A DNA stretch of 61,052 nt from an uncultured bacterium (GCA_949288455.1 CASEKF010000066.1:1-61052), one strand, 5' to 3'; positions 25,776-47,755 are shown, numbered from the stretch's first letter. Notes: generated by a model from the sequence alone, not told the origin. Numbers and translations: made by a program.

Positions 25776-28274
25776 ATGAGACTTGCTTTATCTTTATTTT
25801 TGACGACTTTGTTAATACTTGCGATTACTCCTCAGACAGCTTATTCTCAAAATTTATTTAAATCGAACGTCGAATGTCATTACGCTTTAAAATATGGCGG
25901 TAAGATGATTGGGTATTCCGTTTACAGGACAGGCTCAAATATGAGCCTGGCAGGCGAAGACTTTATTAAATATAGATCTTTGTCAATAGTGAGGGCAGGT
26001 ATCGGCAACATAACCGAATCGGTTTTTCAGGCTGATTTTTCCGTAGACGTGACTACGGGGTTGCCTTCGTATTTTTTAATGCAGCAGAATATCGGAGGCT
26101 TTCAGGCCGTTTCGGAAACCGTTTATTCTGACGGAGTTATAGCGCAGAAAAACGGGACTGAGAAAAATGTCGCGACTTTTATTCATGAAACGGATAATTC
26201 TTGTTATTTGTTTACCGCTAATTTGTGGGGAAGAGTCGATTCTTTTATCGAACATTATTATGTTTTGATTCAAGCTGCTAAAGGAGCCAAAGAGACTGAA
26301 TTTTACGTTTACGATCCTATTTTGAGAACGGAAGGAACGCTTACTTTGATAAGAGAGCCCGAAGTTACTTTAGATTTTAAAGGCAAACAGGTTAAAACAG
26401 ACGTTTATACTTTGAGGAATTATTACGGAATACCTTCGATGAAAATTTGGTATTCTCAACGGGAAAGTAAAATTTATAAGATAGCCGAAATAGGCGGAGA
26501 TTTATCCATCGAATTAAGCAATAATAAAGCCGCCGAAGAGTTGAAGAAAGCTCCGGGAGTCGATTTAGGCCTATCTAGAGCGGCTTTGTCGCCCGTATAC
26601 TTTACCGATTTCGATTCCGTTAGAATGATAAGCGTGTCGGGAAATATCTTTGGTCGAGGTATTAAAACTAAAGATTACGAAGTTCTTGGATTCTCTCAAA
26701 AGTTTAACGGAGACGTTTCTGAAGACGGAGTCTCCGGTACTTTTACCGTAAAAAAGACTGATATCAAGATAGATAAGCCTAATAGATTTCCGCCTTTTAA
26801 ACTTGGAGAAAAATTTGACGTTTATTTGAAAGCTCAGCCCGGAATAGAATCTTCAGACGATTATATAGTAAATAAAGCTCAGGAAATTACATGGAAGTCC
26901 AGAGACTGCAGAACTGCCGCGGGCAAAATTGCGTCTTGGATAAATGAAAACATAAAAGACGGAGTTTCTTTGCCAAGCGCGTTGATAACTTTTAATACCG
27001 GACAGGGAAATCAGGAAAGCAAATCCTTATTAATGACGGCTATGTGTCGGGCCGCAGGGATCCCGGCTAGGATGGCCGGAGGCATAATTTTCGAAAAAGG
27101 GGAATTAATTCCGGGGTATTGGTGCGAAGTATATATTGAAAACAGCGGATGGCTGCCTTTCGACGTTTCAAAAGGGAAAGAAGGCGTTAACTGCGATAGA
27201 GTGTATTTGTATGAGATTGGCGATTTGTCAAAAATATCGCTTGAAGGCGTAGATTTTCTTCCAAAGCCTCCCAAACGCACTCCTTTTCATCAGAAAGATA
27301 TATTTTGGCCTCTTGGGGAATCCAGAACTTATGAAATAAAGATAAACGATAAGGTTATAGGTAAGGAACGCGCCAGAGTTGCCGATATGATTTTTGGAGA
27401 AGAAGGCGAAAATTATTTGTTTGAATCCGAAGTGTTGATGAAAGTTGCCGGAGTAGATTTCAGAGCATATTTAGACGCTTCCTTTGATATAAAAGCTTTG
27501 CCGGTCAGCTGTGATTTTAAAAGTGAAATAGGCGATTCTCTTTCTTCCGGCAAATTTAAATTTACGGATAAATATATACAAAAAATATTGAGAGTTGATG
27601 AAGAAGGAAATGAAGTAACAAGCAATATTCCTTATTCTAAAGGAACATATTTACTGGATAATCGTTTCCTTTCTCTGTGGTGTTTGGCGATAGGGCAGAT
27701 TCCCAGAATTGAAATTGGAGGTAAGTATAGATTTACCGCTTTTATGCCTGAAAATATGAAGATAGTAAAACTGGAGCTTGAAGCTAAAAATTTTGAGAGA
27801 GTAGAGGCTGAAGGCGGCGATGCAAACGCTTTCAGATGCGAGACAAATACCGGAATGATATTCCACATAGATCAATCCGGAAAAGTGTTGAAGATTTCTA
27901 TTCCGGCTCAGAAGCTTGAATTTACTTTGCTTAAAAGCGAAGTCGTATTAGGCGACGATTTGCAAGAACCTTTAGTTTTAGACTCTCCATCTTCCGACGG
28001 GTCTTCGGTTCCTTCTGATGGTTCCGCTCCATCTTCCGACGGATCTTCGGTTCCTTCTGATGGTTCCGCTCCATCTTCCGACGGATCTTCGGTTCCTTCT
28101 GATGGTTCCGCTCCATCTTCCGACGGGTCTTCGGTTCCTTCTGATGGTTCCGCTCCATCTTCCGACGGGTCTTCGGTTCCTTCTGATGGTTCCGCTCCAT
28201 CTTCCGACGGATCTTCGGTTCCTTCTGATGGTTCCGCTCCATCTTCCGACGGGTCTGGCCATTCAGGCAAATGA
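25776..28274 (+). CDS. Secreted transglutaminase-fold protein lacking catalytic residues, with Ser/Asp/Pro repeat tail
   Basis: An 832-aa exported protein (signal peptide 1-24, ending AYS). Residues about 365-470 match a transglutaminase-like core with MCRAAGIPARMAGG and SGWLPFD. The catalytic Cys position of the G-x-C-x-E motif is Asn412 (GQGNQES), and the HAW His position is Gly447 (PGYWCEVY). Only Asp463 of the triad remains, so it is probably a binding or structural domain. Beta-rich regions flank it. The last 95 residues are six 14-residue repeats of the type PSSDGSSVPSDGSA plus part of a seventh, an acidic low-complexity tail perhaps for surface display. The ribosome binding site is weak. 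A gene of unknown function follows 27 bases later. Confidence 0.75.
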   Translation: MRLALSLFLTTLLILAITPQTAYSQNLFKSNVECHYALKYGGKMIGYSVYRTGSNMSLAGEDFIKYRSLSIVRAGIGNITESVFQADFSVDVTTGLPSYFLMQQNIGGFQAVSETVYSDGVIAQKNGTEKNVATFIHETDNSCYLFTANLWGRVDSFIEHYYVLIQAAKGAKETEFYVYDPILRTEGTLTLIREPEVTLDFKGKQVKTDVYTLRNYYGIPSMKIWYSQRESKIYKIAEIGGDLSIELSNNKAAEELKKAPGVDLGLSRAALSPVYFTDFDSVRMISVSGNIFGRGIKTKDYEVLGFSQKFNGDVSEDGVSGTFTVKKTDIKIDKPNRFPPFKLGEKFDVYLKAQPGIESSDDYIVNKAQEITWKSRDCRTAAGKIASWINENIKDGVSLPSALITFNTGQGNQESKSLLMTAMCRAAGIPARMAGGIIFEKGELIPGYWCEVYIENSGWLPFDVSKGKEGVNCDRVYLYEIGDLSKISLEGVDFLPKPPKRTPFHQKDIFWPLGESRTYEIKINDKVIGKERARVADMIFGEEGENYLFESEVLMKVAGVDFRAYLDASFDIKALPVSCDFKSEIGDSLSSGKFKFTDKYIQKILRVDEEGNEVTSNIPYSKGTYLLDNRFLSLWCLAIGQIPRIEIGGKYRFTAFMPENMKIVKLELEAKNFERVEAEGGDANAFRCETNTGMIFHIDQSGKVLKISIPAQKLEFTLLKSEVVLGDDLQEPLVLDSPSSDGSSVPSDGSAPSSDGSSVPSDGSAPSSDGSSVPSDGSAPSSDGSSVPSDGSAPSSDGSSVPSDGSAPSSDGSSVPSDGSAPSSDGSGHSGK
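27987..28256 (+). repeat. 42-bp tandem repeat inside the transglutaminase-fold gene
   Basis: Six complete 42-bp units and 18 bases of a seventh. The units differ at one synonymous site (GGG or GGA Gly codon), so the array expanded recently and is kept in frame. It encodes a 14-residue repeat PSSDGSSVPSDGSA. Confidence 0.95.
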
Positions 28275-32477: not shown

Positions 32478-32726
32478 ATGTCCTTAGGAATAATGGAAAT
32501 TGTATGTATATGTATAGTAGTTCTTATAATTTGGGGACCTAAAAAGCTGCCGGAACTCGCTAGAGCTTTAGGCAAAGCTAAATCTGAATATAAAAAGGCC
32601 GCTAGCGCCGTAGAGCAGGAAACTAAAGACCTTTTAGAAGAGGAAAGCGTCGGACAAACCGAAGTCGATGCAAAAAAGTCTGAAACATCTGTGCCCGGCC
32701 CGGATTTGGCTAAAAGGGATAATTAA
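32478..32726 (+). CDS. tatA: Twin-arginine translocase subunit TatA/E
   Basis: An 82-aa protein with the TatA build: a short N-terminal membrane helix (IMEIVCICIVVLIIWGPKKLP) with the hinge Gly-Pro, an amphipathic helix with LARALGKAKSEYKKA, and a charged unstructured tail. It forms the size-variable channel that lets folded proteins cross the membrane. AAGGAG precedes the ATG. TatC follows after three bases. No TatB is seen, as in Gram-positive-type systems where one TatA serves both roles. The placement behind the reductase-polyferredoxin pair points to a dedicated export machine. Confidence 0.93.
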   Translation: MSLGIMEIVCICIVVLIIWGPKKLPELARALGKAKSEYKKAASAVEQETKDLLEEESVGQTEVDAKKSETSVPGPDLAKRDN

Positions 32727-32729
32727 AAT

Positions 32730-33506
32730 ATGAATAACATTGATCAGCCGTTTTTATCGCACCTGGAAGAGCTAAGAGCCGCAATAATAAAATCTATTGC
32801 GGCTCTTCTGATAGCGTTTCCTTTTATGTTTTTTCTCGCTCCAAAAACTTTAAATTGGCTTATTAGCGTAATTCTTTCCGATATAGATGTTTCTCTTAAT
32901 TATTTTTCTCCTCTAGAAGTATTTGTTATACATATAAAAATAGCCTGTCTTCTTGACTTTTTAGTTTGTTTCCCTTATATAGCCAGGCAGTTATGGCTTT
33001 TTCTTTTGCCCGCGTTGTATGAACATGAAAAAAAAGTAATTATTCCGATAGTCTTTTTATCCAGCGCGCTGTTTTTACTGGGAGTCTTTTTTTGCGTTTA
33101 TTGTATTCTGCCTCTTATTATAAAATTTGGCCTTAGTTTTTCTTCTCCGACTATGCAGGCGATGTTTGGAGTAGAGCGTATCGTTAATATGGCTTTATGG
33201 CTTTCACTCTCTTTTGGAGTGATGTTTCAATTCCCTTTGATCACTTTTTATTTAATAAAGACCGGCGTAGTCGATTACGATACGGCGGTGAAGACAAGAC
33301 CTTACGTTCTCGTAGGCATACTTATAATAGCGGGAATACTTACGCCTCCTGACGTCGTTAGTCAGCTTTTGCTTTTTACGCCGACTTATTTGCTTTTTGA
33401 AATGGGCTTATTATTTGCTAAAGGTAAACGGAGAGGCAAGCCTAAGGATTCTTCGGAATTTGAAGACTCTGAAGGATGCGAAGATTCTAAAAAATCTTTC
33501 CAATAA
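32730..33506 (+). CDS. tatC: Twin-arginine translocase subunit TatC
   Basis: A 258-aa six-helix membrane protein that recognises twin-arginine signal peptides. The family N-terminus FLSHLEELRAAI, the FSPLEVFVIHIKIA stretch, FALYEHEKK-type loop (PALYEHEKKVI) and LTPPDVVSQ are all present. The C-terminal 35 residues are a charged tail of Lys, Glu, Asp and Ser. It starts three bases after tatA. The gene is in the same direction as the Tat-leader reductase and closes this four-gene set; a gap of 140 bases with no strong terminator follows. Confidence 0.96.
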   Translation: MNNIDQPFLSHLEELRAAIIKSIAALLIAFPFMFFLAPKTLNWLISVILSDIDVSLNYFSPLEVFVIHIKIACLLDFLVCFPYIARQLWLFLLPALYEHEKKVIIPIVFLSSALFLLGVFFCVYCILPLIIKFGLSFSSPTMQAMFGVERIVNMALWLSLSFGVMFQFPLITFYLIKTGVVDYDTAVKTRPYVLVGILIIAGILTPPDVVSQLLLFTPTYLLFEMGLLFAKGKRRGKPKDSSEFEDSEGCEDSKKSFQ

Positions 33507-34373: not shown

Positions 34374-35204
34374 ATGCTTCACGGTTTTATGTATGTCGCT
34401 CCTTCTTCTAAAAAGGAATTACTTGAGTTGATCTCGGGAAAATCCGCCTCTTATAAAATATTGGCCGGAGGAACGGATTTGCTTGTAGATATTAGAGCCG
34501 GTAAAATTAGTCCGTCCTGCGTTATCGATATTAAAAAAATAGAAGCATTTAAAGAAATTAATTTTAGTTTAGAGGAAGGACTTATTATTGGCGCCTCCGT
34601 TACGCTTACCGAAATAACGGAAAACGGTTTCGTTAATTCGGATTTTGAAGTTTTGGCGAACGCAGCCGCTTCCATAGCTTCCAGACAGATAAGGAATAAA
34701 GCTACCGTAGCGGGAAATATCTGCACGGCCAGTCCTGCGGGAGATATGGCTCCCGCTTTATTAGCTCTTGACGCTCGCGTAAATGTGATATCCGTAAGAG
34801 GCAGGAGAACGGAACCTTTGTCTTCTTTTTATAAAGGCGTTAGAAAAACGGATTTGGCCGACGATGAAATTGTCGAGTCGATATCTGTGCCGAATAAATA
34901 TTCTGATTGGAAAGGCAAAGTTTTAAAGCTTAAACGTATTAAGGGACATGATCTTGCGCTTGTCAGCGCCGCTATGATTTCCGATTCCGACGTTATCAGG
35001 CTTGCCGCAGGTTCATGCGCTCCCGTTCCCGTTTTTTTGGGAGAATACAAAATTTCTTCCGACGTCGAACATATAGTTGATTCGGCTCTAAAATTGACGT
35101 CTCCTATAGACGATTTGAGAGCCGGGGCGGAATATCGGAAATTTATGCTTGGACAGTATATAAAAAGACTTGTTGAATATGCTAGAACTTCTGACGAGGA
35201 ATAA
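34374..35204 (+). CDS. Xanthine dehydrogenase-type FAD-binding subunit
   Basis: The middle, FAD-containing subunit of a three-subunit molybdenum hydroxylase (CoxM/XdhB type), 276 aa. The FAD-binding hallmarks are present: LAGGTDLLVDIRAGK, and IASRQIRNKATVAGNICTAS followed by PAGDMAPALLALDA. It transfers electrons from the iron-sulfur subunit to NAD or another acceptor. The stop codon TAA at 35202-35204 touches the ATG of the next gene, and GAGGA at the gene end serves as its ribosome binding site. The subunits are encoded in the order FAD, 2Fe-2S, molybdenum. I leave the gene symbols empty because the substrate (xanthine, nicotinate or other) is not known. Confidence 0.9.
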   Translation: MLHGFMYVAPSSKKELLELISGKSASYKILAGGTDLLVDIRAGKISPSCVIDIKKIEAFKEINFSLEEGLIIGASVTLTEITENGFVNSDFEVLANAAASIASRQIRNKATVAGNICTASPAGDMAPALLALDARVNVISVRGRRTEPLSSFYKGVRKTDLADDEIVESISVPNKYSDWKGKVLKLKRIKGHDLALVSAAMISDSDVIRLAAGSCAPVPVFLGEYKISSDVEHIVDSALKLTSPIDDLRAGAEYRKFMLGQYIKRLVEYARTSDEE

Positions 35205-35693
35205 ATGGTTATGAAAATTAAGGTAACTGTGAACAATATATTATACGAACGCGAGATAGAGCCTAATATGACTTTACTGCGTTTTTTGCGAAACGAATTG
35301 GGATTTACGGGAGTTAAAGAAGGTTGCGGAGCTGGAGAATGCGGAGCTTGTACCGTTATTATGAACGGCAGGACAGTAAATTCTTGCATCACTTTGGCGG
35401 CTGAGGCCGACGGTTCTGAGATTGAGACAATTGAAGGCGAAGTTAAGGACGGAAAGCTTTCGGGATTGCAAGAATGTCTGAATAAACATCATGCCGTGCA
35501 GTGCGGTTTTTGTACTCCAGGAATGGTTATGATTTTAAAGGAATTCCTTCTTGAAAATCCTTCGCCTACGGAAGAGGAGGTATATGCCGCCATCGAAGGC
35601 AATTTTTGCAGATGTACTGGATATAAGCAGATAGTCGAAGCCGTAATGGATTATACGGCCGGCAAAATCGGAGACGAATTGAAATATGAATGA
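35205..35693 (+). CDS. Xanthine dehydrogenase-type 2Fe-2S subunit
   Basis: The small electron-transfer subunit, 162 aa. It has both clusters of the family: the plant-type 2Fe-2S site GCGAGECGACTV with a later SC, and the all-helical site CGFCTPGM plus GNFCRCTGY. It passes electrons from the molybdenum centre to the FAD subunit. The start could be ATG 35205 or ATG 35211 (MKIKV); both are in frame. The stop TGA at 35691-35693 overlaps the start of the large subunit by eight bases, so the three genes are translated together. Confidence 0.96.
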   Translation: MVMKIKVTVNNILYEREIEPNMTLLRFLRNELGFTGVKEGCGAGECGACTVIMNGRTVNSCITLAAEADGSEIETIEGEVKDGKLSGLQECLNKHHAVQCGFCTPGMVMILKEFLLENPSPTEEEVYAAIEGNFCRCTGYKQIVEAVMDYTAGKIGDELKYE

Positions 35694-38046
35694 AAACGCA
35701 GAGAAAAATTCTTTAAAATATGTGGGTAAAAACGCCGTTAGAGTCGATGCTTTCGAAAAATTGACCGGCTCGGCCGTTTATACGGGAGATTTGATTTTTC
35801 CGGGTATGTTGTATGCTAAAGTTAAGAAGAGTCCTTATGCCAGGGCAAAAATTTTATCTATAGATACGTCTAAGGCTGAAGCGGCTCCCGGGGTGCATGC
35901 CGTGCTCATAGGAGAAGAACTCAATTACAGGTTGGGTTTGTATTTGGTAGACAAGTATATTTTAGCTCGCGGCTGCGTCAGACATTTCGGAGAAGCCGTA
36001 GCCGCCGTGGCAGCTGACAGCGAAGCCGCCGCTCAGGCTGCCGTAGATCTTATCGAAGTTAACTACGAGCCTTTAGAGCCTGTTTTAGATCCGGTAAAAG
36101 CTTTAGAGCAGGATTCTCCTCTTGTTCATCCCGATCTTGCCGATTATAGTTTTGTCGAGGCTTGTTTTACTCCTGTCCCCGGAACTAATATAGCCAATCA
36201 TACGAAGCTTAGAAAGGGCGACGTTGAAAAGGGTTTTGCGAGATCTGATTATATAGTCGAACGGCGTTATACAAATCCAAGCGTTCAGCATGTGCCTATG
36301 GAAACTCATGCGGCCGTCGGAGTATGGGGCGCCGGAGATCGTTTGAAAGTTTGGACGTCGGCTCAATCTCCTTTTACCGTAAGAAATCTTTTGGCTTATG
36401 CTTTTAAGATTCCCCACGCGTCTATTCAGGTTCATATACCGTACGTAGGCGGGGGATTCGGAGGCAAAGCCGGGATCGGGATTGAGCCTTTAGCGCTTGC
36501 GCTCTCTAAAAAAGCCGGAGGCAGACCGGTTAGATTCGTCGCCACCAGAGAGGAAGAATTTTCTATGCTTCCTTGTAGGAGCGGATTAACGTACGATATT
36601 AAAACGGGCTTGTCCAAGTCCGGGAAAATTATCGCTCAGAAAATGACTATGTATTGGGATTCGGGAGCTTACGCAGACTATGCCGTAAACGTCACTCGTT
36701 CTTCCGGATATTCCGCTTCAGGACCCTATGAGATCCCGAACGCCTGGATCGACGCTTATACGATTTATACAAATAAACCTTTTGCCACCGCATACCGGGG
36801 CTTTGGTCATGTGGAATTTTCTTGGGGCATAGAAAGGCATATGGATTTAGCCGCAGAAACCGTGGGGATGGATCCTTTGGAATTTAGAAAATTAAACGCC
36901 TTAAAACCGGGATCTGTAACGCTTACGGGAGAAATTGTTACTGCAAATACCGGAAACGTCGTTAAATGCCTTGAAACTGCGGCTAAAGCGATTGGATACG
37001 GAGGGTTAACTGAGGAAGAAAAGAAAAGAGAAGAGTCGACTAAAAGAAAAATAGCTAAGTCCGTAGCCGCTCTGCATAAAGCTCCCGCGATGCCGTCTTA
37101 TACTTCTACGGCCGTAACGCTAAGGATGAATGAGGACGGCAGCGTAACGGCTAATTTTACGCTTACCGAAATCGGAGCGGGGACTTATACTTCAATAGCT
37201 CAAATATTAGCGGAAGAATTGAGATTCCCTATTGAAAAGATAAAAGTCGTAATTGAGAGCGATACGGATCATGATCCTTACGATTGGCAGACAGTAGCTT
37301 CCAAAGGACTTATTTTAACCGGAAACGCCGCTATTCTTGCCGCAAGAGATCTTTTGAAACAGGCTTACGATACGGCTTCCAGAGTTCTTAGAGCAAGTTT
37401 GGAAGATCTAGATCACGACTCGGAGAAAATTTTTATAAAACGCAGCCGCGAAAAAAGCGTCTCTTTTAGTTCTTTAGCCGTAGGATACGCTTATCCCGAC
37501 GGACAGGGAATAGGAGGGCCTCTCATTGGAGTAGGCAGATATACGGCTCAGGGACTTACTAACCTTGACAAAGAAACGGGACAGGGCAAACCTGCTCTGG
37601 CATGGACTTATGGAGCTCATGGAATAGTAGTAGAGGTAGATCCTGAAACGGGAGAATACGATATATTAAAAGTAGCTTCTGCGTTTGACGTTGGCAGGGT
37701 TATTAATCCTCAGGCCGTTAGAGGGCAGGCTATAGGAGGAATTCTTCAGGGGCTTGGCACGGCTATGTGCGAAGGATATATATATAATTCCGAAGGAGTA
37801 ATGTTAAACGCCGGATTTACGGACAATAAAATTCCCACTTCACAAGACCTTCCGAAAAATATTGAGGTTTACGCCATAGAAACCCCTCAGATCGACGGGC
37901 CTTTTGGAGCCAGAGGAGTCGGAGAACATTCTATGATCGGCATATGCGGCGCTTTGGGAAACGCCATAAAAAACGCATGCGGCGCAGAGCTTACTCATAT
38001 GCCTATTCGCTTCGAAGACGTATGGAAAGCTTTACGGAGGCGTTAA
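35686..38046 (+). CDS. Xanthine dehydrogenase-type molybdenum-binding subunit
   Basis: The 786-aa catalytic subunit that carries the molybdenum cofactor and hydroxylates a purine or other aromatic ring with water as the oxygen source. Characteristic stretches are LTGSAVYTGDL, YVGGGFGGKAG (cofactor loop), YRGFGHVE and RGVGEHSMIG with the catalytic Glu. The missing neighbours are the cofactor-insertion (XdhC/MocA) genes. Bases from about 37028 to the stop were copied into a downstream tandem duplication, and that copy is now a relic at 40461-40905. This intact copy is the ancestral one because its upstream genes are continuous. No terminator was seen behind it. Confidence 0.94.
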   Translation: MNENAEKNSLKYVGKNAVRVDAFEKLTGSAVYTGDLIFPGMLYAKVKKSPYARAKILSIDTSKAEAAPGVHAVLIGEELNYRLGLYLVDKYILARGCVRHFGEAVAAVAADSEAAAQAAVDLIEVNYEPLEPVLDPVKALEQDSPLVHPDLADYSFVEACFTPVPGTNIANHTKLRKGDVEKGFARSDYIVERRYTNPSVQHVPMETHAAVGVWGAGDRLKVWTSAQSPFTVRNLLAYAFKIPHASIQVHIPYVGGGFGGKAGIGIEPLALALSKKAGGRPVRFVATREEEFSMLPCRSGLTYDIKTGLSKSGKIIAQKMTMYWDSGAYADYAVNVTRSSGYSASGPYEIPNAWIDAYTIYTNKPFATAYRGFGHVEFSWGIERHMDLAAETVGMDPLEFRKLNALKPGSVTLTGEIVTANTGNVVKCLETAAKAIGYGGLTEEEKKREESTKRKIAKSVAALHKAPAMPSYTSTAVTLRMNEDGSVTANFTLTEIGAGTYTSIAQILAEELRFPIEKIKVVIESDTDHDPYDWQTVASKGLILTGNAAILAARDLLKQAYDTASRVLRASLEDLDHDSEKIFIKRSREKSVSFSSLAVGYAYPDGQGIGGPLIGVGRYTAQGLTNLDKETGQGKPALAWTYGAHGIVVEVDPETGEYDILKVASAFDVGRVINPQAVRGQAIGGILQGLGTAMCEGYIYNSEGVMLNAGFTDNKIPTSQDLPKNIEVYAIETPQIDGPFGARGVGEHSMIGICGALGNAIKNACGAELTHMPIRFEDVWKALRRR

Positions 38047-38244
38047 ACATCGCTTTTTATCGGATATCTTTTGAGTTTATCGAATAAAATAACAAATTTT
38101 TCTAAAACGTAAGATTTTTATAGAAAGATACTACCGCATTGTAAGAGATATTTAAAATAATGTTAATAATCGTATAGTAATATAAAAGCGTAATAGAAAT
38201 TAACCTGAAACGGTTTACAGCAATAAAAATTTAGGAGGCCGCTT

Positions 38245-39102
38245 ATGAAAAAACTTTTGACTTTGACTCTCGCAGGAATATGCGCATTAGCGTTTGCGGC
38301 GACAGTCGACGCAGCTACGACTTCCAGAGTTACCACTCCGTCTAAAACCATAAATCGTATAGTAAATCCGACGGTTGTGACGATTGAAGACGTAAGGCTG
38401 GCTGATCGCAGTTTTACGTCCGGTAACGTTAGCCATTCTTGGACAGAGTCTTGGATTGTAACCGGAGTTACGACTTATTTTGCTGAAGTTTCTTCGACTC
38501 CAGTAACTTACAGTATGGTCGACGGAGTTCTTACCGCTTCTTCGGAAACTACCGTTACTCAGAACAGCGCAAGAACTGACACTAGATATACTCAAACGGT
38601 TCATGATTTAGATCCTCTGGTTTTAGACATTCATCAGACCGGAAAAATAACGACCGCTAAGAACGAATGGCTTCCGCATGCTCCTGAATTTTACGGAGAA
38701 TATGCTTCTACGTTCGATTTTACCGGAGACGGAATCCCGGATCAGACTGAATGGCTTTCAGAAAATCCCGGCGCTTTCCTTTGCATGCCTCAGAACGGAC
38801 AAATAACCGGTGTTGCCGAACTTTTCGGGAATCTCGGAGGATATGCCAACGGTTTTGATAAATTGGCAACTCTTTGCGATTTAGACGGCAACGGCGTAGT
38901 GGAAGGCGAAGAGCTCAGCGGAATAATGCTTTGGATAGATTCCAACAGAAACGGAGTTTCAGATCCGGGAGAGCTTCATACTCTCGAATCTTACGGTATA
39001 ACCAAACTTTATACGGATCAGGAAAATTTTGTCGGCAAATATGAAACTTCGGACGGTTCCGTTCATACTATGTGGGCTTGGTGGCCTACCGTTAAGCAAT
39101 AA
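38245..39102 (+). CDS. Secreted EF-hand-like calcium-binding protein, copy 1
   Basis: A 285-aa exported protein. The signal peptide is MKKLLTLTLAGICALAFAAT, with cleavage near VDA. A variable region (about 35-110) rich in Thr and Ser is followed by a strongly conserved C-terminal domain with three acidic loops of the EF-hand/thrombospondin-repeat type: DFTGDGIPDQTEW, DLDGNGVVEGEEL and DSNRNGVSDPGEL. These predict calcium binding and Ca-dependent folding outside the cell. AGGAGG is upstream of the ATG. A hairpin separates it from the propeller-like gene downstream, with which it forms a pair; both are repeated at 41075-43245. Function unknown. Confidence 0.8.
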   Translation: MKKLLTLTLAGICALAFAATVDAATTSRVTTPSKTINRIVNPTVVTIEDVRLADRSFTSGNVSHSWTESWIVTGVTTYFAEVSSTPVTYSMVDGVLTASSETTVTQNSARTDTRYTQTVHDLDPLVLDIHQTGKITTAKNEWLPHAPEFYGEYASTFDFTGDGIPDQTEWLSENPGAFLCMPQNGQITGVAELFGNLGGYANGFDKLATLCDLDGNGVVEGEELSGIMLWIDSNRNGVSDPGELHTLESYGITKLYTDQENFVGKYETSDGSVHTMWAWWPTVKQ

Positions 39103-39127
39103 GTCGAATTTTTAGCTTAAAATAGAG

Positions 39128-39175
39128 AATTAGGGAGGAAATTTGCTTCTAATTATAAAAATTTCCTCCCTAATT
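39128..39175 (+). terminator. Conserved intergenic hairpin, copy 1
   Basis: A perfect 17-bp stem, AATTAGGGAGGAAATTT (39128-39144) with AAATTTCCTCCCTAATT (39159-39175), and a 14-base loop. The same stem with a different loop occurs at 42003-42057 in the second copy. It probably attenuates transcription into the next gene. The stem buries a Shine-Dalgarno-like AGGGAGGA. Confidence 0.65.
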
Positions 39176-39205
39176 ATTTTATATTACATTAAAGGAGAAT
39201 TTTAC

Positions 39206-40366
39206 GTGAAGATTAGATTGAGAACTTTAATTTTTTTGGTTTTCTTATCCTTATGTTTTTCGGGTTTTTCCGACGCTAAAGTAGTTTCTAAAGGCAAAGT
39301 TTCAAAGGGACAGCTTTCCAAAACGTTTGGAGACGCTCTTTTAAATATGAATTTTTTGCGTATATCTAGTGAATCCGGCGACGTATTTATGCTTACTAGA
39401 GATTCTAAAAGCAGAACCAGAGATTTAGGCTGGGTTCTTTATAATCCCGTAAATAATAAAGTTATTAAGAAAGGTTTATGTCCTTTTAAATTTGAGAATA
39501 AACAAGTAGCCGTTAGCCCTAACGCTAAATATGCCGCAGCGTTTAGCCGTCATCCCGCCTCTCTTTATATCTTAAACATTGAGACCGGCGAATGGAAAAA
39601 CGTATATGATAACCCTCCTTCCGATAAGAGCGGCCTTTCAATTTTCGAACTTTTAGGCGGCTCTTCAACTCAGGATTCTCCTCTTGTTTTTGTAGATGAC
39701 GACACTGTCGCCTCAATATTTCATGACATGAAATATGCCGAGGGCGAAAAAACTACAGTAGATTTAGTTTCGGTTTTTTATAAAATATCTGAAGGTAAAC
39801 TTTATAAAAGCTTAAGTTATAAAGCTTTTATAGAAGGCGGAGAAAAAGCCGTTATAGCTTCCGGAGTTCATTTAGAAGGCGGTTCGTCTTTAAGCGGCGT
39901 AGATTTTCTCGGTTTTAAATCTTTTATTTATGTTCTTAAATCCGGAGAGAAATCTTTTTTGATAAAAGCCGAAGAAGGCAGGGAGTTTAAGCTTATTGAC
40001 AGCATTGCCGGAGATATCGAATATTTGGGAAACAGAACCGAAGACGGAGCGATAGTATATAATTGCATACCGACTTCTCAGAATAAGGATAATAACTATT
40101 ACAGGGAACTTAAAGCTTACGTCAACGGCAAAATTTTGACAATATCTTCAGGACGAATTTTTGGAGCTTTAGTTTCATGCTATAATCGTTATATTTTAGT
40201 AAATCTGAGCGACAGCGGACGACGTTACGTAATAGATTTATTGAAAGACGGCAAAACTGAGAATTTAACGTCAATATCGAAGTTTATGATATTTCATTTG
40301 GGAGATAAGAAAAATATTTTGTATTTAACTGATGATCGCGAAGTTCAGTGGTTTGTATTCGAATAA
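39206..40366 (+). CDS. Secreted propeller-like protein, copy 1
   Basis: A 386-aa exported protein beginning at GTG 39206, where AAAGGAG lies upstream. The upstream part of the open frame (39143-39205) runs through the intergenic hairpin and is not coding. The signal peptide is VKIRLRTLIFLVFLSLCF, ending FSDA. The mature protein repeats short beta units such as MLTRDSKSRTRDLGW, VSPNAKYAAAF and LVNLSDSGRRYVIDL, as in WD40/TolB-like propellers, though no family could be named. A strong terminator follows. Its copy at 42088-43245 is highly similar throughout. Confidence 0.7.
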   Translation: MKIRLRTLIFLVFLSLCFSGFSDAKVVSKGKVSKGQLSKTFGDALLNMNFLRISSESGDVFMLTRDSKSRTRDLGWVLYNPVNNKVIKKGLCPFKFENKQVAVSPNAKYAAAFSRHPASLYILNIETGEWKNVYDNPPSDKSGLSIFELLGGSSTQDSPLVFVDDDTVASIFHDMKYAEGEKTTVDLVSVFYKISEGKLYKSLSYKAFIEGGEKAVIASGVHLEGGSSLSGVDFLGFKSFIYVLKSGEKSFLIKAEEGREFKLIDSIAGDIEYLGNRTEDGAIVYNCIPTSQNKDNNYYRELKAYVNGKILTISSGRIFGALVSCYNRYILVNLSDSGRRYVIDLLKDGKTENLTSISKFMIFHLGDKKNILYLTDDREVQWFVFE

Positions 40367-40381
40367 TTTTTACTTCGTCTG

Positions 40382-40417
40382 AGCGGCGTAACTATATATA
40401 GTTACGCCGCTTTTTTG
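40382..40417 (+). terminator. Terminator of the propeller-like gene, copy 1
   Basis: A 30-base perfect palindrome (AGCGGCGTAACTATA / TATAGTTACGCCGCT) followed by TTTTTT. Confidence 0.9.
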
Positions 40418-40460
40418 TTTTGTTCTATTTTAAATGTTAAGCTATAGCTTATGATTATTT

Positions 40461-40905
40461 GAGAAGAAAAAAAAATGAGAATAGCTAACCAAGTCTAGCT
40501 CTTCGCAATAAAGCTTGCGCAATGCCGTTTTATACTGTTAATTACTAAGGACGAATGAGTACGACAGCGCAACGGCTAATTTTACGCTTACTGAAGATAG
40601 TGATCTTGATTCTTGAAAACTCTTCATAAAGCGACAGTCGCGAATAAAGCGTTTATTTTAGTTTTTTAGGCGCGTATAATGCTTATATCTATCCGTACAG
40701 GGAATATAGGCGCACGTTTATATATGGAAGGTTTAGAGACTTACTGACTTTGACAGAGAAACTCTACAGAGTAAGCCTGCTTTTGCGTGAACTTATAGGG
40801 TTAATGGCATAATAGATTGTTAGAGACAGATATTGAAACAGCGTAATAGGATATATTAGAAATAGCTTCGGAGTTATATTTCTGTTTTTGTTTAATACCC
40901 TTGTA
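40461..40905 (+). pseudogene. Relic of the molybdenum-subunit gene 3' part
   Basis: No open frame is left, but the DNA aligns to the intact subunit gene in several blocks. 40545-40595 matches 37120-37170 with few mismatches (ACGGCTAATTTTACGCTTAC is shared). 40631-40690 matches 37441-37500, 40735-40800 matches 37550-37615, and 40850-40870 matches 37660-37680. About 230 bases are lost between the first two blocks and about 360 after the last. It arose by tandem duplication and has lost selection, unlike the two genes copied with it. Confidence 0.85.
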
Positions 40906-41074
40906 AGTTATTACATGAAGATAAAATATCTTTTTAATAAGTAATATTTTATAGAAAGATACTGCCGCATTGTAAAAGATAGTTAAAGTAATGTTAATAA
41001 GTTTATAGTAATATAAAAACGTGGTAGAAATTAAACTGGAACGGTTTATAACAATAAAATTTAGGAGGTCGCTT

Positions 41075-41983
41075 ATGAAAAAACTTTTGACTTTGACTAT
41101 CGCCGGTATTTGCGCTTTCGCGTTTGCGGCGACAGTCGACGCAGCTACTACTTCCAGAATTACCGCTCCGTCTAAAAACATAAAATATGTCGAAAATCCA
41201 ACGGTTGTGACGGTTGAAGTGAGTGGTTCTAACAGCAATTTGATGTTTTTCTCTACAGGTTTAGAGGATGACTTTAATTTCTATAATAATTCGTCTTTAC
41301 TCCTTCTTGAAAGGGGAGAGACGAATTATTCTGCTGAAATTTCTTCGACTTCTGTAGAATACACTTTGGTGGACGGAGTTCTTACCGCTTCTTCGGAAAT
41401 TACCGTTATTCAGAACAGCGATAGAACTGATATGGCAATGCCAAATCCGCCGCCTGACCCCGGCGGTAACGGTGGCGGCGGCGGTGAGCCGCTGGTTCTA
41501 GACATCCATCAAACCGGCAAGATAACGACCGCTAAAAACGAATGGCTTCCGCATTTTCCTGAATTTTACGGAGAATATGCTTCTACGTTCGATTTTACCG
41601 GAGACGGTATCCCGGATCAGACTGAATGGCTTTCCGAAAATCCAGGAGCTTTACTTTGCATGCCTCAGAACGGGAAAATAACCGGAGTTACCGAACTTTT
41701 CGGCAATCTAGGAGGATATGCCAATGGTTTTGATAAGTTGTCTACTCTTTACGATGTAGACGGCAACGGTATAGTGGAAGGCGAAGAGCTCAGCGGAATA
41801 ATGCTTTGGATTGATTCAAACAGGAACGGAGTTTTAGATCCCGGAGAACTTCATACGCTGGAATCTTACGATATAACCAAAATTTATACGGATCATGAAA
41901 ATTTTGTCGGCAAATATGAAACTTCGGACGGCTCCGTTCATACTATGTGGGCTTGGTGGCCCAGCATAAAACAGAAGTTTTAA
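41075..41983 (+). CDS. Secreted EF-hand-like calcium-binding protein, copy 2
   Basis: A 302-aa paralogue of the gene at 38245. The signal peptide is almost identical (MKKLLTLTIAGICAFAFAAT). The three loops are DFTGDGIPDQTEW, DVDGNGIVEGEEL and DSNRNGVLDPGEL, and the C-terminal 170 residues are nearly the same. The middle part differs strongly and has gained a Pro/Gly linker (PNPPPDPGGNGGGGG) in a locally GC-rich stretch. I set the start at ATG 41075 after AGGAGG at 41063-41068; the frame is open upstream to 41021. The upstream 140 bases also match copy 1, so both copies keep the same promoter region. Confidence 0.8.
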   Translation: MKKLLTLTIAGICAFAFAATVDAATTSRITAPSKNIKYVENPTVVTVEVSGSNSNLMFFSTGLEDDFNFYNNSSLLLLERGETNYSAEISSTSVEYTLVDGVLTASSEITVIQNSDRTDMAMPNPPPDPGGNGGGGGEPLVLDIHQTGKITTAKNEWLPHFPEFYGEYASTFDFTGDGIPDQTEWLSENPGALLCMPQNGKITGVTELFGNLGGYANGFDKLSTLYDVDGNGIVEGEELSGIMLWIDSNRNGVLDPGELHTLESYDITKIYTDHENFVGKYETSDGSVHTMWAWWPSIKQKF

Positions 41984-42002
41984 ATTTAAGGTTTAGTTTT
42001 AA

Positions 42003-42057
42003 AAATAATTAGGGAGGAAATTTTCAGAGTAAAAATATAAATTTCCTCCCTAATTAT
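42003..42057 (+). terminator. Conserved intergenic hairpin, copy 2
   Basis: The stem AATTAGGGAGGAAATTT with AAATTTCCTCCCTAATT is identical to copy 1 and extends a few more pairs on the outside. The loop sequence differs from copy 1, so the stem has been kept while the loop drifted. Confidence 0.65.
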
Positions 42058-42087
42058 TGTATATTACGATTTAAAGGAGAATTTTAC

Positions 42088-43245
42088 GTGAAGATTAGAT
42101 TGCGGTTTTTAATTGTTTTAATTTTCATATCGTTGTGTTTTTCAGGTTTTTCCTACGCAAAAGTAGTTTCTAAAGGCAAAGTTTCACAGAAACAGCTGTC
42201 TAAAACGTTTGGCGACGTTATTTTAAATGTGAATTTTATGCGTATATCTGGAGAATCCGGAGACGTATTTATGCTTATGAGATCTAAAGCCAGAACTCGC
42301 GATTTAGGTTGGATTCTTTATAATCCCGCAAATAATAAAGTTCTGAAGAAAGGTTTATGCCCTTTTAAATTTGAGAATAAAAAAATAGCCGTTAGCCCTA
42401 ACGCTAAATATGCCTCAGCGTTTAGCAGTTTTCCCACGTCTCTTTATATACTGAACATTGAGACCGGAGAATGGAAAAACATATATGATAATCCTCCTTC
42501 CGATAAGAGCGGCCTTGCAATTTTTGAGCGTTTAGGAGGAGCTTCTACGCAGGATTCTCCTCTATATTTTGTGGATGACGATACCCTGGCTTCAATATTT
42601 CATGATATGAAATATGCCGAGGGAGAAAAAACTACCGTAGATTTAGTTTCGGTTTTTTATAAAATATCTGAAGGTAAACTTTATAAAAGCTTAAGTTATA
42701 AAGCTTTTATAGAAGGCGGAGAAAAAGCGGTTAAAGCTTCCGGAGTTCATGTAGACGGAGCTTTGTCCTTAAGCGGCATAAAATTTCTCGGTTTTAAATC
42801 TTTTATATATGTTCTTAAATCCGGAGAGAAATCTTTTTTGATAAAAGCCGAAGAAGGCAAGGAGTTTGAGCTTATTGACAGCATTGTCGGAGATATCAAA
42901 TATTTGGGAAATAGAACCGAAGACGGAGCTATCTTATATAATTGCATGCCGGCTTCTCAGAATAAGGATAATAACTATTACAGGGAACTTAAAGTTTACG
43001 TAAACGGCAAAATTGCGACAATATCTTCAGGACGGATTCTGGGAGCTTTATGTTCCGGTTCCGATAGTTATATTTTAGTGAATCTTAGCGAAAGCGGACG
43101 ACGTTACGTAATAGATTTATTGAAAGACGGCAAAACTGAGAATTTAACGTCAATATCTAAGTTTATGGTATTTCATTTGGGAGATAAGAAAAATATTTTG
43201 TATTTAACTGATGATCGCGAAGTTCAGTGGTTTGTATTCAAATAA
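42088..43245 (+). CDS. Secreted propeller-like protein, copy 2
   Basis: A 385-aa paralogue of the gene at 39206, with the same GTG start and AAAGGAG site. The signal peptide is VKIRLRFLIVLIFISLCF, ending FSYA. Most of the protein is identical to copy 1 (for example SLYILNIETGEWKN and DDREVQWFVF). Differences are scattered and many are conservative, so the gene seems to be under selection for function. It is followed by its own terminator, then by the end of the convergent GGDEF gene. Confidence 0.7.
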   Translation: MKIRLRFLIVLIFISLCFSGFSYAKVVSKGKVSQKQLSKTFGDVILNVNFMRISGESGDVFMLMRSKARTRDLGWILYNPANNKVLKKGLCPFKFENKKIAVSPNAKYASAFSSFPTSLYILNIETGEWKNIYDNPPSDKSGLAIFERLGGASTQDSPLYFVDDDTLASIFHDMKYAEGEKTTVDLVSVFYKISEGKLYKSLSYKAFIEGGEKAVKASGVHVDGALSLSGIKFLGFKSFIYVLKSGEKSFLIKAEEGKEFELIDSIVGDIKYLGNRTEDGAILYNCMPASQNKDNNYYRELKVYVNGKIATISSGRILGALCSGSDSYILVNLSESGRRYVIDLLKDGKTENLTSISKFMVFHLGDKKNILYLTDDREVQWFVFK

Positions 43246-43260
43246 TTTTTACTTCGTATA

Positions 43261-43297
43261 AGCGGCGTAACTATAAAAAGTTATGCCGCTTTTTTTT
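43261..43297 (+). terminator. Terminator of the propeller-like gene, copy 2
   Basis: Stem AGCGGCGTAACT / AGTTATGCCGCT with one G-T wobble and a 6-base loop, followed by a T-run. It is diverged from copy 1 at the loop. Confidence 0.9.
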
Positions 43298-43328
43298 GTT
43301 TTATAGTTCTCTATTTTGACATGTAAAG

Positions 43329-44909
43329 CTATAGCTTATGATTATTTGGATTGTTGAGTATTACGGTTTTTTGCAGTTCTTCTAAGGCGTATCCATGCTT
43401 AAGTCTATATAATCTTAAAAATATGCCTACAATGCGGGCCAGTTCCGTTATGACTTCAATTTGTTTTAAGTTCCAACATTTTATATCTCTGCATTCGTCG
43501 AATCCTACGAATCCTATATTTTCTCCTTCGTCTGTCAATTCGTAATGTAACATCGATTTGATTCCCTGAGGCTTAAGTATTTCTTGCAGTTCGGGAGTAA
43601 GATCTAAAACGTCGCTGCAATAGAAAAGCCCTTGAGTTTTTTTCATAGAGCTATAATAATTTTTAAGCGTCGTTCTTTTCAGATGCTGAAGAGTATGTAT
43701 CATCGGAGAAATGCCGTTAGCGCACCATTCGAACGTATTGACCGTATATTTGCCATCTTGTGAATTTTCAAATATGTAAACCCGGCTGACGTCGAATGTT
43801 TCGCCTATTATCGCTAAGATAGAGTTGAGCGTTTTAAAAATATCCTTTGCTTCATATAGATGATTGAATGCATGTCGCTGCAAGAAAAATTCCGTAAGTA
43901 GTTCTTTATTTTTTCGCCTGGCGTTTAAGTTATAATGTATTTGACCGAAATCAGACTCGTCTGTTATATCGTCGTAAATAATCGCTATGCCTTTGCCTTG
44001 TGATTTTGCCATATAAAGAGCCGTATCGGCGTTATTGTAAAGCGTTTGGAAATCTGTGCCTGAATAGGGAAAAATGGCGCATCCTAAGCTGCAAGTCACT
44101 CTTTGCGTTTTTCCCGATTTAGGAGCGTTGTCTATTATAGTTTGAATAATTTTTTTTAATTTGGTCTCAATAATTTTTTTTGACTTTACGTTTTTCATGA
44201 AGACGATCATTTCGTCTCCGCCAATTCTTCCTATTATGTCCGAAGAACGAAAAGTTTTCTTTAAAGTATAAGCTATGTTGATAATTATCCTGTCTCCGAA
44301 AGGATGACCGCAGGTATCGTTAATTTTTTTAAAGTTGTCTATATCGATAATAACAAGAGCTCCGGAGTCATGGGGTTCAGCGTGAGATAAATATTCTTCG
44401 ATGAGCATTTGAGCTGTTTTACGATTATAAAGGTTTGTCAGGGGATCAAGTTCCGCTCTTTGTTTTAAATTAATTTGATGTAATTTTTTTTCGGATATAT
44501 CGATAAGAATTCCGGTAACCCGGCTTATATTTTTCTCTTTATTATATTTGCCTTTAAGAAAAACCCATCGTATGGAATTCTGAGAATTTAGTATTTGAAG
44601 CTCCATTTCTACTTTTTGAGATTTGTCAAGTTGAGATATCAGATCTTGCCTGTTTCTTTCATAATGTTCCGGCTTTAATATATCTTTTAAAGACTTAATG
44701 TTTTTTCGAATTTTAGTTTTGTGAGAATAACCTAGCAAAAGTAAAAATTCTTGATTTTTATCGATTATAGTCATATCTTCATCGGTGAGAAAGGTTATTC
44801 CGGCGCAAGGAAAATCTTTGAGAACAGTCGCGTTAGGCGGAGAATTTTTGTTTTCTTTGTTTCTGTTGTGTTTTTTTGAGTTCATTTTTCCGGTTAGCGT
44901 TATCGCCAT
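43329..44909 (-). CDS. PAS-GGDEF-GAF diguanylate cyclase
   Basis: A 526-aa cytoplasmic signalling protein. A PAS domain (about 35-145, with VTGILIDISEKK) is followed by a GGDEF domain (about 150-320). Its signature reads RIGGDEM, so the last residue of GGDEF is Met, while the metal-binding Asp (IDIDNFKKIND) is kept. It is therefore probably an active cyclic-di-GMP synthase, although the fifth residue is unusual. A GAF-like domain (about 350-510) completes it. No membrane segment is present. The last codons (NNHKL) lie inside the duplicated segment, and their copy survives at 40441-40461. The start has no strong ribosome binding site; the second Met at residue 9 is also possible. Confidence 0.85.
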   Translation of the reverse strand: MAITLTGKMNSKKHNRNKENKNSPPNATVLKDFPCAGITFLTDEDMTIIDKNQEFLLLLGYSHKTKIRKNIKSLKDILKPEHYERNRQDLISQLDKSQKVEMELQILNSQNSIRWVFLKGKYNKEKNISRVTGILIDISEKKLHQINLKQRAELDPLTNLYNRKTAQMLIEEYLSHAEPHDSGALVIIDIDNFKKINDTCGHPFGDRIIINIAYTLKKTFRSSDIIGRIGGDEMIVFMKNVKSKKIIETKLKKIIQTIIDNAPKSGKTQRVTCSLGCAIFPYSGTDFQTLYNNADTALYMAKSQGKGIAIIYDDITDESDFGQIHYNLNARRKNKELLTEFFLQRHAFNHLYEAKDIFKTLNSILAIIGETFDVSRVYIFENSQDGKYTVNTFEWCANGISPMIHTLQHLKRTTLKNYYSSMKKTQGLFYCSDVLDLTPELQEILKPQGIKSMLHYELTDEGENIGFVGFDECRDIKCWNLKQIEVITELARIVGIFLRLYRLKHGYALEELQKTVILNNPNNHKL

Positions 44910-45487: not shown

Positions 45488-47755
45488 CTAAATTCTCACT
45501 CCTCCGCTTGGAGCCGGAGCCGCCGCCGGTTGAGGAGACGCCTGTATATTAGGCTGGGTTGCTTGAGTCTGAGCAGGTTGAGCGCTTGCTTGCTGAGTTT
45601 GTTGATTTTGTTGAGTTTGTTGTTTTGGCTGTTGCTGTTGAGTTTGCCGATTTTGTTGAGTCTGCTGCTGAGGTCTGGTTTGAGTTCTCTGAGCGTTTGC
45701 GCGTTGACCCATTCCCGCTTGCATGGATCGGTTTACTCCGGAATTTTGCCTGCTAAATTGATCGTTCATTCCATTTTTATATTGCTCTTTTATTTTATCT
45801 TGACCCTCTCCGCCGTTTAAAGCTTGAAGTACCGTTTGTTCTACATGTTGGTCTACGATTACTTTTTCTTGATTGACTTGCTCCCAAAGCTGAGAAAGTT
45901 CATTTTCTTTTCCGTTCGTTTGATTTGTTCCCGAAGCCTGTCCGTTTTGTCTTGAAGCGTTTACTTCCGACGCTAAAGAAAGCAGCTGCTGTTCGTATTG
46001 CTGTTTTTTGCCGCTGCCGGTTACGGCGTTGTCGCCGTTTATACCCGCAGCGTTTCCGGTTTGGTTCCCTCTGGAAGCTAATCCGGCTTGCTGAGCGTTG
46101 GCGTTTTGATTTGCACGCTGATTCTGCTGCGCGTTCTGATTTTGTTGAGTTTGTTTCGTATTCTTATTATTTGTATTTGCGTTTTTATCCGCTTTGTTCG
46201 AAGCGTTTGAATTTTTGTTAGACGTTACTCCGGATAATCCTTGCATTCCAAGAAGACCGGCTTGAGAAGCGTTAAGGTTAATACTCATATTCATGGATAT
46301 CTGTCCGGCAGGCTGTCCGACGCTTATGCCCATAGGCTGCATCGTTGGCATTGCCGCCATAGGAGACGCCGTCATTGATATTCCCATTTGAGAACCTGCG
46401 CTAAATCCTCCGCCTTGACGTCCTCCGCCGCTAAATCCTCCTCCGAATCCTCCGCCGAAGCTGAATCCTCCTCCGAAACCGCCTGCGGAACCCATTCCGC
46501 TCATAGTCGGAACTGATAATCCTCCGCCAAGCATACCGCTTTGTCTGGCATTGTTCGCCATAGAATATTGATTCATCATATTCATGGTATTCATGGTGTT
46601 CATCATAGTCATTCCGGCTAGTCCGGCCATCATCATTCCAAGCATAGCGGAATTCGCCCCGCCGTAGCCTCCCATTCCATAGCCTCCGCCGTATTGCTGA
46701 CCGGCGTCTCCTCCGCCAAGATCATGCCCGAGAGACATCAACTGCTGAATGATTTGCTGTTGCTGCTGCTGAGTATTGTTAAGATATTGGTAAATTTGCT
46801 GAAGTTGCTGCTGCGTTTGCTGGAGCTGCTGTTGAACTTGCTGCAGTTTTTGGAGTTCTTGAGCTTTCTGCATCGCCATTTGAGCTTTTTTCATATTAAA
46901 CTGCTGAGCCTGTTGTCCGCTTTGTTGAGCTTGTTGACTCATTTTTTGAGCGAAGTTTTTCAGCTGCTGGGCAACTTGTTTTAATCCTTTCGCTACAGTT
47001 TTTAAAGTTGTAGCCACTACTTTCAACGCCGCGGACAAAGCCGCTCCTACGAATGGAATTCCCGCTACTGCCGTCGCTGCGGCCTGTACTGCCTGAGCTG
47101 CCGATTGTATGCCGGTTGCGGCGGTAGTAAGCGCGGTTGACGCTCCGTTTAGAGCCGTCGCAGCCGCTTGAAGCGTCATTTGTTTCGCTTGAGCCGCTAG
47201 AGCCTGCATGTTAAATTGAGATTCCTGCTGTCCGAAAAAGTTAACGCTTTGCTGCAATAAATTGCTGGTATTCATTTGCTGAGACATTAAGGAATTCGTC
47301 GAGGAAAGGGCCGAGAATAAAGACGTTTGATTATTTTGAGTTTGACTGAGCAGAGCGTATAAAGTGTCGACGTTATCGGTGTTTATATTCATATTCATAT
47401 TCAGCCCGCTTATATTAAACGAACCTGAACTGCCTACGGATACTAGATTCATCGCGGTATTCATATCTTTAAAGCTTAACGCTTTTCCCGCCGAACTCTG
47501 CGCAAAACTAATCTGAGGGCGAGCTTGCTCGTAAGAATCTTCGCCGTTCTTAGCCGCTTCTATTCCCTGTTGAGAACTGTTTACCGAATCTTGTCTTCCT
47601 TGTTTTATCGAATCCACATGGTGTTGTTTAATTTTTTTTCTGGCTCTTCTTTTTTTCCTGGCTTTATTTAATTGAGTTTCAGCGTTTGCAAATTGCGAAT
47701 CAACCGTTGTCGGCATGTTATAGTCAATGTTGAAGTTTACGTTCGAAATATCCAT
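45488..47755 (-). CDS. Large Gln/Asn/Gly-rich protein with coiled coil
   Basis: A 755-aa low-complexity protein with no recognised family. Residues 1-100 are charged (ARKKRRARKKIKQHH). An Ala-rich hydrophobic stretch, VAGIPFVGAALSAALKVVA (about 225-245), could insert into or lie on a membrane. A long Gln-rich coiled coil (about 255-330) is followed by Gly- and Met-rich segments (GGYGMGGYGG, GFGGGFSFGGGFGGG). The last 250 residues are Gln/Asn-rich, prion-like. There is no signal peptide. The build (helical hydrophobic core between unstructured ends) recalls secreted translocators or surface filament proteins, but that is only a shape resemblance. GGAGG lies upstream at a long distance. It is the last gene on the minus strand before a terminator. 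Confidence 0.6.
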   Translation of the reverse strand: MDISNVNFNIDYNMPTTVDSQFANAETQLNKARKKRRARKKIKQHHVDSIKQGRQDSVNSSQQGIEAAKNGEDSYEQARPQISFAQSSAGKALSFKDMNTAMNLVSVGSSGSFNISGLNMNMNINTDNVDTLYALLSQTQNNQTSLFSALSSTNSLMSQQMNTSNLLQQSVNFFGQQESQFNMQALAAQAKQMTLQAAATALNGASTALTTAATGIQSAAQAVQAAATAVAGIPFVGAALSAALKVVATTLKTVAKGLKQVAQQLKNFAQKMSQQAQQSGQQAQQFNMKKAQMAMQKAQELQKLQQVQQQLQQTQQQLQQIYQYLNNTQQQQQQIIQQLMSLGHDLGGGDAGQQYGGGYGMGGYGGANSAMLGMMMAGLAGMTMMNTMNTMNMMNQYSMANNARQSGMLGGGLSVPTMSGMGSAGGFGGGFSFGGGFGGGFSGGGRQGGGFSAGSQMGISMTASPMAAMPTMQPMGISVGQPAGQISMNMSINLNASQAGLLGMQGLSGVTSNKNSNASNKADKNANTNNKNTKQTQQNQNAQQNQRANQNANAQQAGLASRGNQTGNAAGINGDNAVTGSGKKQQYEQQLLSLASEVNASRQNGQASGTNQTNGKENELSQLWEQVNQEKVIVDQHVEQTVLQALNGGEGQDKIKEQYKNGMNDQFSRQNSGVNRSMQAGMGQRANAQRTQTRPQQQTQQNRQTQQQQPKQQTQQNQQTQQASAQPAQTQATQPNIQASPQPAAAPAPSGGVRI

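Follow-up and report, generated by a model that had tools for sequence, protein, structure and literature searches.

A tandem duplication with two preserved copies of a gene pair for a stand-alone relative of the FrpC self-processing module and a predicted propeller partner

In a stretch of 61,052 nucleotides from an uncultured bacterium (GCA_949288455.1, CASEKF010000066.1:1-61052; hereafter the window), a complete unit of two genes for secreted proteins is present twice, head-to-tail, together with a piece of a neighbouring molybdenum hydroxylase gene. The explanation that we favour, and that we hold to be likely, is one duplication of the complete two-gene unit, after which the hydroxylase passenger decayed neutrally, both pairs were kept, and the second pair has been specialising. 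The duplication is real, fairly old and lineage-specific, and it is ordinary in kind. What is new, and more interesting than the duplication, is the identity of the genes: judged by sequence comparison, the first encodes a free-standing protein related to the self-processing module (SPM) of FrpC, which we call SPM-like, and the second encodes a predicted propeller partner. Moreover, since a single event copied two live genes along with a dead fragment, the locus is a natural experiment, in which the fragment gives the local neutral rate with which to read the constraint on the promoter region, the hairpin, the domains, and the terminator.

An earlier note on this DNA had proposed a tandem segmental duplication of about 3433 bases spanning 37028-43348, its far end within the closing codons of a GGDEF gene, and with a visible breakpoint at 40461 where molybdenum-gene sequence is joined. 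Self-alignment of the window bears this out for a unit of ~3.45 kb (Table 1), with one correction: the start lies near 37016, not 37028. Positions 38086-40461 match 40918-43348 at 85% identity over 2447 columns (2716 bits), and two hydroxylase-derived matches are collinear with them, 37076-37170 with 40508-40595 (78%), and 37426-37685 with 40617-40875 (70%). We thus have two collinear head-to-tail copies and one junction joining unrelated genes, which is what a tandem segmental duplication consists of. Within the unit, a 5′-truncated hydroxylase piece is followed by two complete genes for secreted proteins and by a terminator, after which the unit runs into the end of the GGDEF gene, positions 40461 and 43348 being equivalent and falling within its final six codons.

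The junction at 40461 reads ...GATTATTTG followed directly by AGAAGAAAA..., and the two parents have at most ~2 bp (TG) in common at the joint, which makes illegitimate recombination the apparent mechanism. Both copies carry a 12-base palindrome, AAGCTATAGCTT, at a distance of 11 bases from the joint (40439 and 43326); speculatively, it may have aided the event. The genome is a draft of 70 contigs, and one could ask whether metagenome binning or assembly created the repeat. We give that a negligible probability. The junction sequence is unique, and the copies differ by ~15% in a structured way, neutral in the relic and constrained in the genes, that a collapsed or chimeric assembly would not yield.

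Table 1. Features of the duplicated unit and its flanks, in window coordinates.
Feature	Position	Strand	Basis or remark
Intact large-subunit gene of a molybdenum hydroxylase (xanthine dehydrogenase family), from which the relic derives	35686..38046	+	Pfam MoCoBD_1 1e-76, MoCoBD_2 2e-71, Ald_Xan_dh_C 3e-24
Duplicated unit, copy 1	37016..40461	+	Self-alignment; start good to a few bases
Upstream region, copy 1 (probable promoter and leader)	38106..38244	+	87% identity to 40938-41074, 2 gap columns; follows the region of the large deletions
SPM-like calcium-binding secreted protein, copy 1, 285 aa	38245..39102	+	FrpC SPM homology; signal peptide by eye
Long perfect hairpin between the genes, copy 1	39126..39176	+	Fold z = -4.3
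Secreted beta-propeller-like protein, copy 1, 386 aa	39206..40366	+	GTG start; AlphaFold2, Foldseek
Intrinsic terminator, copy 1	40381..40412	+	14-pair stem, then T run
Duplicated unit, copy 2	40461..43348	+	Self-alignment; shortened by decay of the hydroxylase piece
Relic of the hydroxylase gene 3′ part (pseudogene fragment)	40461..40905	+	Score 112; stops in all frames; even codon-position divergence
Upstream region, copy 2	40938..41074	+	87% identity to 38106-38244
SPM-like secreted protein, copy 2, 302 aa	41075..41983	+	FrpC SPM match; alignment; the GTG of the ORF list (41021) sits upstream of the conserved ATG
Same hairpin, copy 2	42002..42058	+	Fold z = -5.9
Secreted beta-propeller-like protein, copy 2, 385 aa	42088..43245	+	GTG start; 86% identity to copy 1
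Intrinsic terminator, copy 2	43260..43291	+	13-pair stem, then T run; one G-C to G-U, loop altered
PAS-GGDEF-GAF gene, last codons = distal breakpoint	43329..44909	-	Pfam GGDEF 2.5e-41

Elsewhere in the window, the hydroxylase operon (34374-38046) is closely preceded by tatA and tatC (32478-33506), a gene for a transglutaminase-like protein ends in an in-frame tandem repeat of 42 bp, PSDGSAPSSDGSSV, with five or more almost identical units (27985-28256), and a 755-aa low-complexity protein rich in Gln, Asn, Gly, and Met is encoded at 45488-47755, with an amphipathic Ala/Gln-rich central part.

The relic derives from the intact hydroxylase gene beside it, whose large subunit reaches none of the NCBIfam equivalog cut-offs. 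Their alignment scores 112, well above the maximum of 30 in 300 shuffles. That neighbour is the relic's only other DNA match in the genome; a recent transfer from another hydroxylase paralogue was considered and rejected on that account. As the earlier note had it, the relic has lost about 230 and 360 bases: we measure net losses of ~234 bp (255 vs. 21) and 358 bp (400 vs. 42). In addition, there are 16 small indels in ~400 bp, 13 of them breaking the frame, and stops in every frame (7 stop codons are read in a protein search). The differences fall equally on the three codon positions (23/121, 24/122, and 21/121), as expected in the absence of coding constraint. The relic was copied without the first ~56% of the hydroxylase (about 443 of 786 codons), and without start codon or promoter. 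Because it was dead on arrival, its decay is expected. It is a neutral yardstick, and decay alone is no evidence for selection on the neighbours.

Consequently, the earlier argument that different decay of genes copied together suggests selection holds only in part, and selection is shown instead by direct measurement of the preserved genes. Between copies, dN/dS is 0.36 for the SPM-like gene (bootstrap 0.25-0.50) and 0.30 for the propeller gene (0.19-0.46), both purifying, and the 1.16 kb of the propeller gene show one 3-bp indel vs. the 16 of the far shorter relic. Both genes are open in both copies, as had been claimed, with 0 stops or frameshifts in the 687 codons of copy 2. Purifying selection has kept both copies of both genes, most strongly the calcium-binding domain at the C-terminus of the SPM-like protein (dN 0.04, dS 0.37, dN/dS 0.11; 89% identity). 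The N-terminal part of the same protein is exempt from that constraint, either free to change or being changed (dN 0.40, dS 0.50, dN/dS 0.81, and several indels).

The duplicated unit holds a whole transcription unit: ~140 bp of upstream sequence, the first gene, the hairpin, the second gene, and an intrinsic terminator. The stem of the hairpin is identical in both copies while its loop has changed. A promoter search in the two upstream regions gave no confident call, and an Rfam search returned sub-threshold chance matches only.

How much has the second copy moved away from the first? Using as outgroup the closest relative (G001, a metagenome-assembled genome from horse faeces; the relatives are horse-faeces and rumen MAGs), a Tajima test counts 8 amino acids unique to copy 1 vs. 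22 unique to copy 2 in the SPM-like protein, and 7 vs. 18 in the propeller protein, or 15 vs. 40 for both pooled (p = 0.001). When G002 or contig C8 (of the host genome), both more distant, serves as outgroup, the rate difference is not significant, and the propeller leans the opposite way. In trees, the two copies are sisters to the exclusion of G001 (support 0.93 and 0.99), and the copy 2 branches are 2 and 4 times longer. The faster protein change seen with G001 as outgroup is moderate evidence, and suggests that copy 2 is specialising.

Copy 2 could instead be under relaxed constraint and merely on its way to loss, to which its faster protein change and the near-neutral N-terminal part would conform. 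We find this improbable, given that its codons have stayed free of stops and frameshifts for the same time in which the relic took all its indels, that dN/dS falls clearly short of 1 in the propeller as well as in the SPM domain, and that the promoter region, the hairpin stem, and the terminator are retained. A second pair kept purely for dose, that is, for more of the same two proteins, would account for two complete transcription units, for conserved promoter region and terminator, and for an SPM domain under strong purifying selection in both copies. It accounts less well for the faster protein evolution of copy 2, for the N-terminal part, and for the residue change between the copies where the SPM cleavage site aligns. 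The earlier note had offered double dose or divergence; the evidence favours divergence, because copy 2 has more unique protein changes and the N-terminal part differs strongly, and we keep pure dose as the less likely alternative, ahead of relaxed constraint.

Silent divergence within the propeller gene is uneven, 0.38 at residues 141-180 and 0.06-0.07 nearby (chi-square p = 1e-4 for segments picked after inspection, and permutation p = 0.044 otherwise). Thus, some gene conversion may blur the dating. Gene conversion as the cause of preservation was set aside, its support being weak.

Searches of Pfam and NCBIfam assign neither secreted protein to a family. The label of EF-hand gene given earlier to the first is correct and incomplete. 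A profile of 18 relatives aligns its C-terminal domain to the FrpC SPM with E = 9.3e-21, starting from Pro415, and single-sequence phmmer searches agree (8.7e-10 to 6sjx for copy 1, and 4.1e-7 to 6sjw for copy 2). On this sequence evidence, the domain and the calcium-dependent self-processing module are homologous. Two tryptophans of copy 1, W170 and W230, are conserved and aligned with W451 and W519 of FrpC. AlphaFold2 run on five sequences produced no usable fold for the SPM-like protein (pLDDT 34).

Calcium makes the FrpC module fold, whereupon the bond between Asp414 and Pro415 is broken and the freed Asp is joined to a lysine; the mutation D579A abolishes cleavage, while D478N reduces it only moderately (PMC7078468). 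The cleavage-site proline is invariant across the SPM-like proteins aligned. The residue before it is Asp in copy 1 (Asp123-Pro124) and in G001, Glu in copy 2, G002, and G003, and Ser or Thr in nearly all other relatives; in copy 2 the Glu-Pro follows a new Pro/Gly-rich stretch. The apparent counterpart of D579, matched by position beyond the aligned region, is Ala278 in both copies, Ser in G001, and Asp in most Ser-Pro relatives. All five members with Asp or Glu before the proline have Ala or Ser there, where the others have Asp. As no sampled member has both acids, self-cleavage is not predicted for either copy: both seem to be without another residue that FrpC needs, and cleavage cannot be called with confidence. 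One may imagine a split of roles, in which copy 1 (Asp-Pro) would cleave itself and attach its N-terminal domain either to the propeller or to some target on a surface, and copy 2 (Glu-Pro) would be a non-cleaving calcium binder; we regard this as very doubtful. The acid before the proline may rather serve in holding calcium.

A side observation is that the residue before the invariant proline (Ser/Thr vs. Asp/Glu) covaries with the variable residue of a C-terminal W-(D or A/S)-W-W-P motif.

The second secreted protein is predicted to be a beta-propeller, a closed ring of four-stranded sheets. The AlphaFold2 model of copy 1, from a 5-sequence alignment, has pLDDT 79 and pTM 0.77, and its best Foldseek matches are WD40/DPP-IV propellers (E 5e-9 to 1e-7, TM 0.4-0.5).

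The SPM-like and propeller pair is a conserved module. The two genes are adjacent in eight relatives (G001, G002, G003, G004, G015, G030, G034, and G036) and at a third place in the host genome, on contig C8; a propeller lies within ~1.5 kb at 13 of the 36 SPM-like loci, and in the tree, the paired SPM-like members that were sampled fall into a single clade (support 0.998). Scanning the genome's contigs with the propeller alone gave no match, and we found no literature on these proteins in the host's phylum, which may be Riflebacteria. Since the neighbouring genes vary between genomes, the module moves. Members of the family other than the host have a single copy of the orthologue of the window pair, and in G001-G003, in a comparison restricted to genera other than the host's, that pair sits at a different locus. 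G004 has a hydroxylase operon (large subunit 74%) with no pair beside it, its pair lying elsewhere. A search of G001-G003 for a close orthologue of the hydroxylase large subunit found none. We had considered a neighbour gene in G001 as a remnant of the same operon, and dropped the idea for a weak FAD_binding_5 match (E 0.057) and the lack of a close large subunit.

In G002 (contig C5) and G003 (contig C104), at loci L057 (7378-9649) and L058 (2085-4357), one SPM-like gene is followed by two tandem propeller genes, from which we see that tandem copying recurs in this gene family. The propeller copies of G003 group together in the tree, a hint of gene conversion or of a separate duplication.

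In most pairs a strong hairpin (z between -1.7 and -5.9) stands between the two genes, at loci L056, L063, L064, L065, and L055 as well as in the window. The stems are unrelated in sequence between pairs, and some are followed by T runs. The hairpin is likely a partial terminator that holds the propeller below the calcium protein.

Returning to the favoured explanation, the history would run as follows. After the host lineage had parted from the other genera of the family with sequenced genomes, a single illegitimate-recombination event, with near-zero shared sequence at the joint, would have duplicated 3.45 kb head-to-tail. Because the unit held a complete transcription unit, both copies would have been functional from birth, while the hydroxylase piece, promoterless and start-less, would have been dead from birth and left to neutral decay. 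Purifying selection would then have retained both pairs, with copy 2 changing faster, chiefly in the SPM-like N-terminal domain, toward specialisation. As for function, extracellular calcium would fold the SPM-like domain so as to display the variable, beta-rich N-terminal domain, the protein and its propeller partner would act jointly, either on the cell surface or extracellularly, and the hairpin between the genes would set the ratio of the two.

With respect to known systems, the locus does not differ in kind from an ordinary bacterial tandem duplication with a truncated pseudogene at the joint: the copies are head-to-tail, the breakpoints intragenic, the truncated piece decays, and complete genes may persist. 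Its age (dS 0.25-0.4) suffices for its use as a footprinting experiment. The second protein resembles WD40/DPP-IV-type propeller proteins in its predicted fold, and differs from them in having no sequence-family match, TM-scores no better than those given above, and no enzyme domain. The first shares with the SPM of FrpC and FrpA of Neisseria meningitidis and of ApxIVA (6sjw, 6sjx; PMC7078468) a domain that is homologous by sequence, the two tryptophans, and EF-hand-like calcium loops, and in copy 1 and G001 also the Asp-Pro at the cleavage position. In contrast to the FrpC SPM, which sits in a large RTX exoprotein, it is secreted as an independent protein of ~290 aa, has a signal peptide, and is encoded beside a propeller gene; and it departs from FrpC in the Glu-Pro of copy 2 and the Ser/Thr-Pro of most relatives, in the Asn at the D478 position, and in the Ala or Ser at the apparent match of D579. 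The SPM fold of FrpC is in this way extended from large RTX exoproteins to small secreted proteins with a propeller partner, in gut bacteria of another group. These sequences suggest that most natural members of the fold are without the Asp-Pro cleavage site, and hence that calcium-dependent folding, rather than cleavage, may be their common function.
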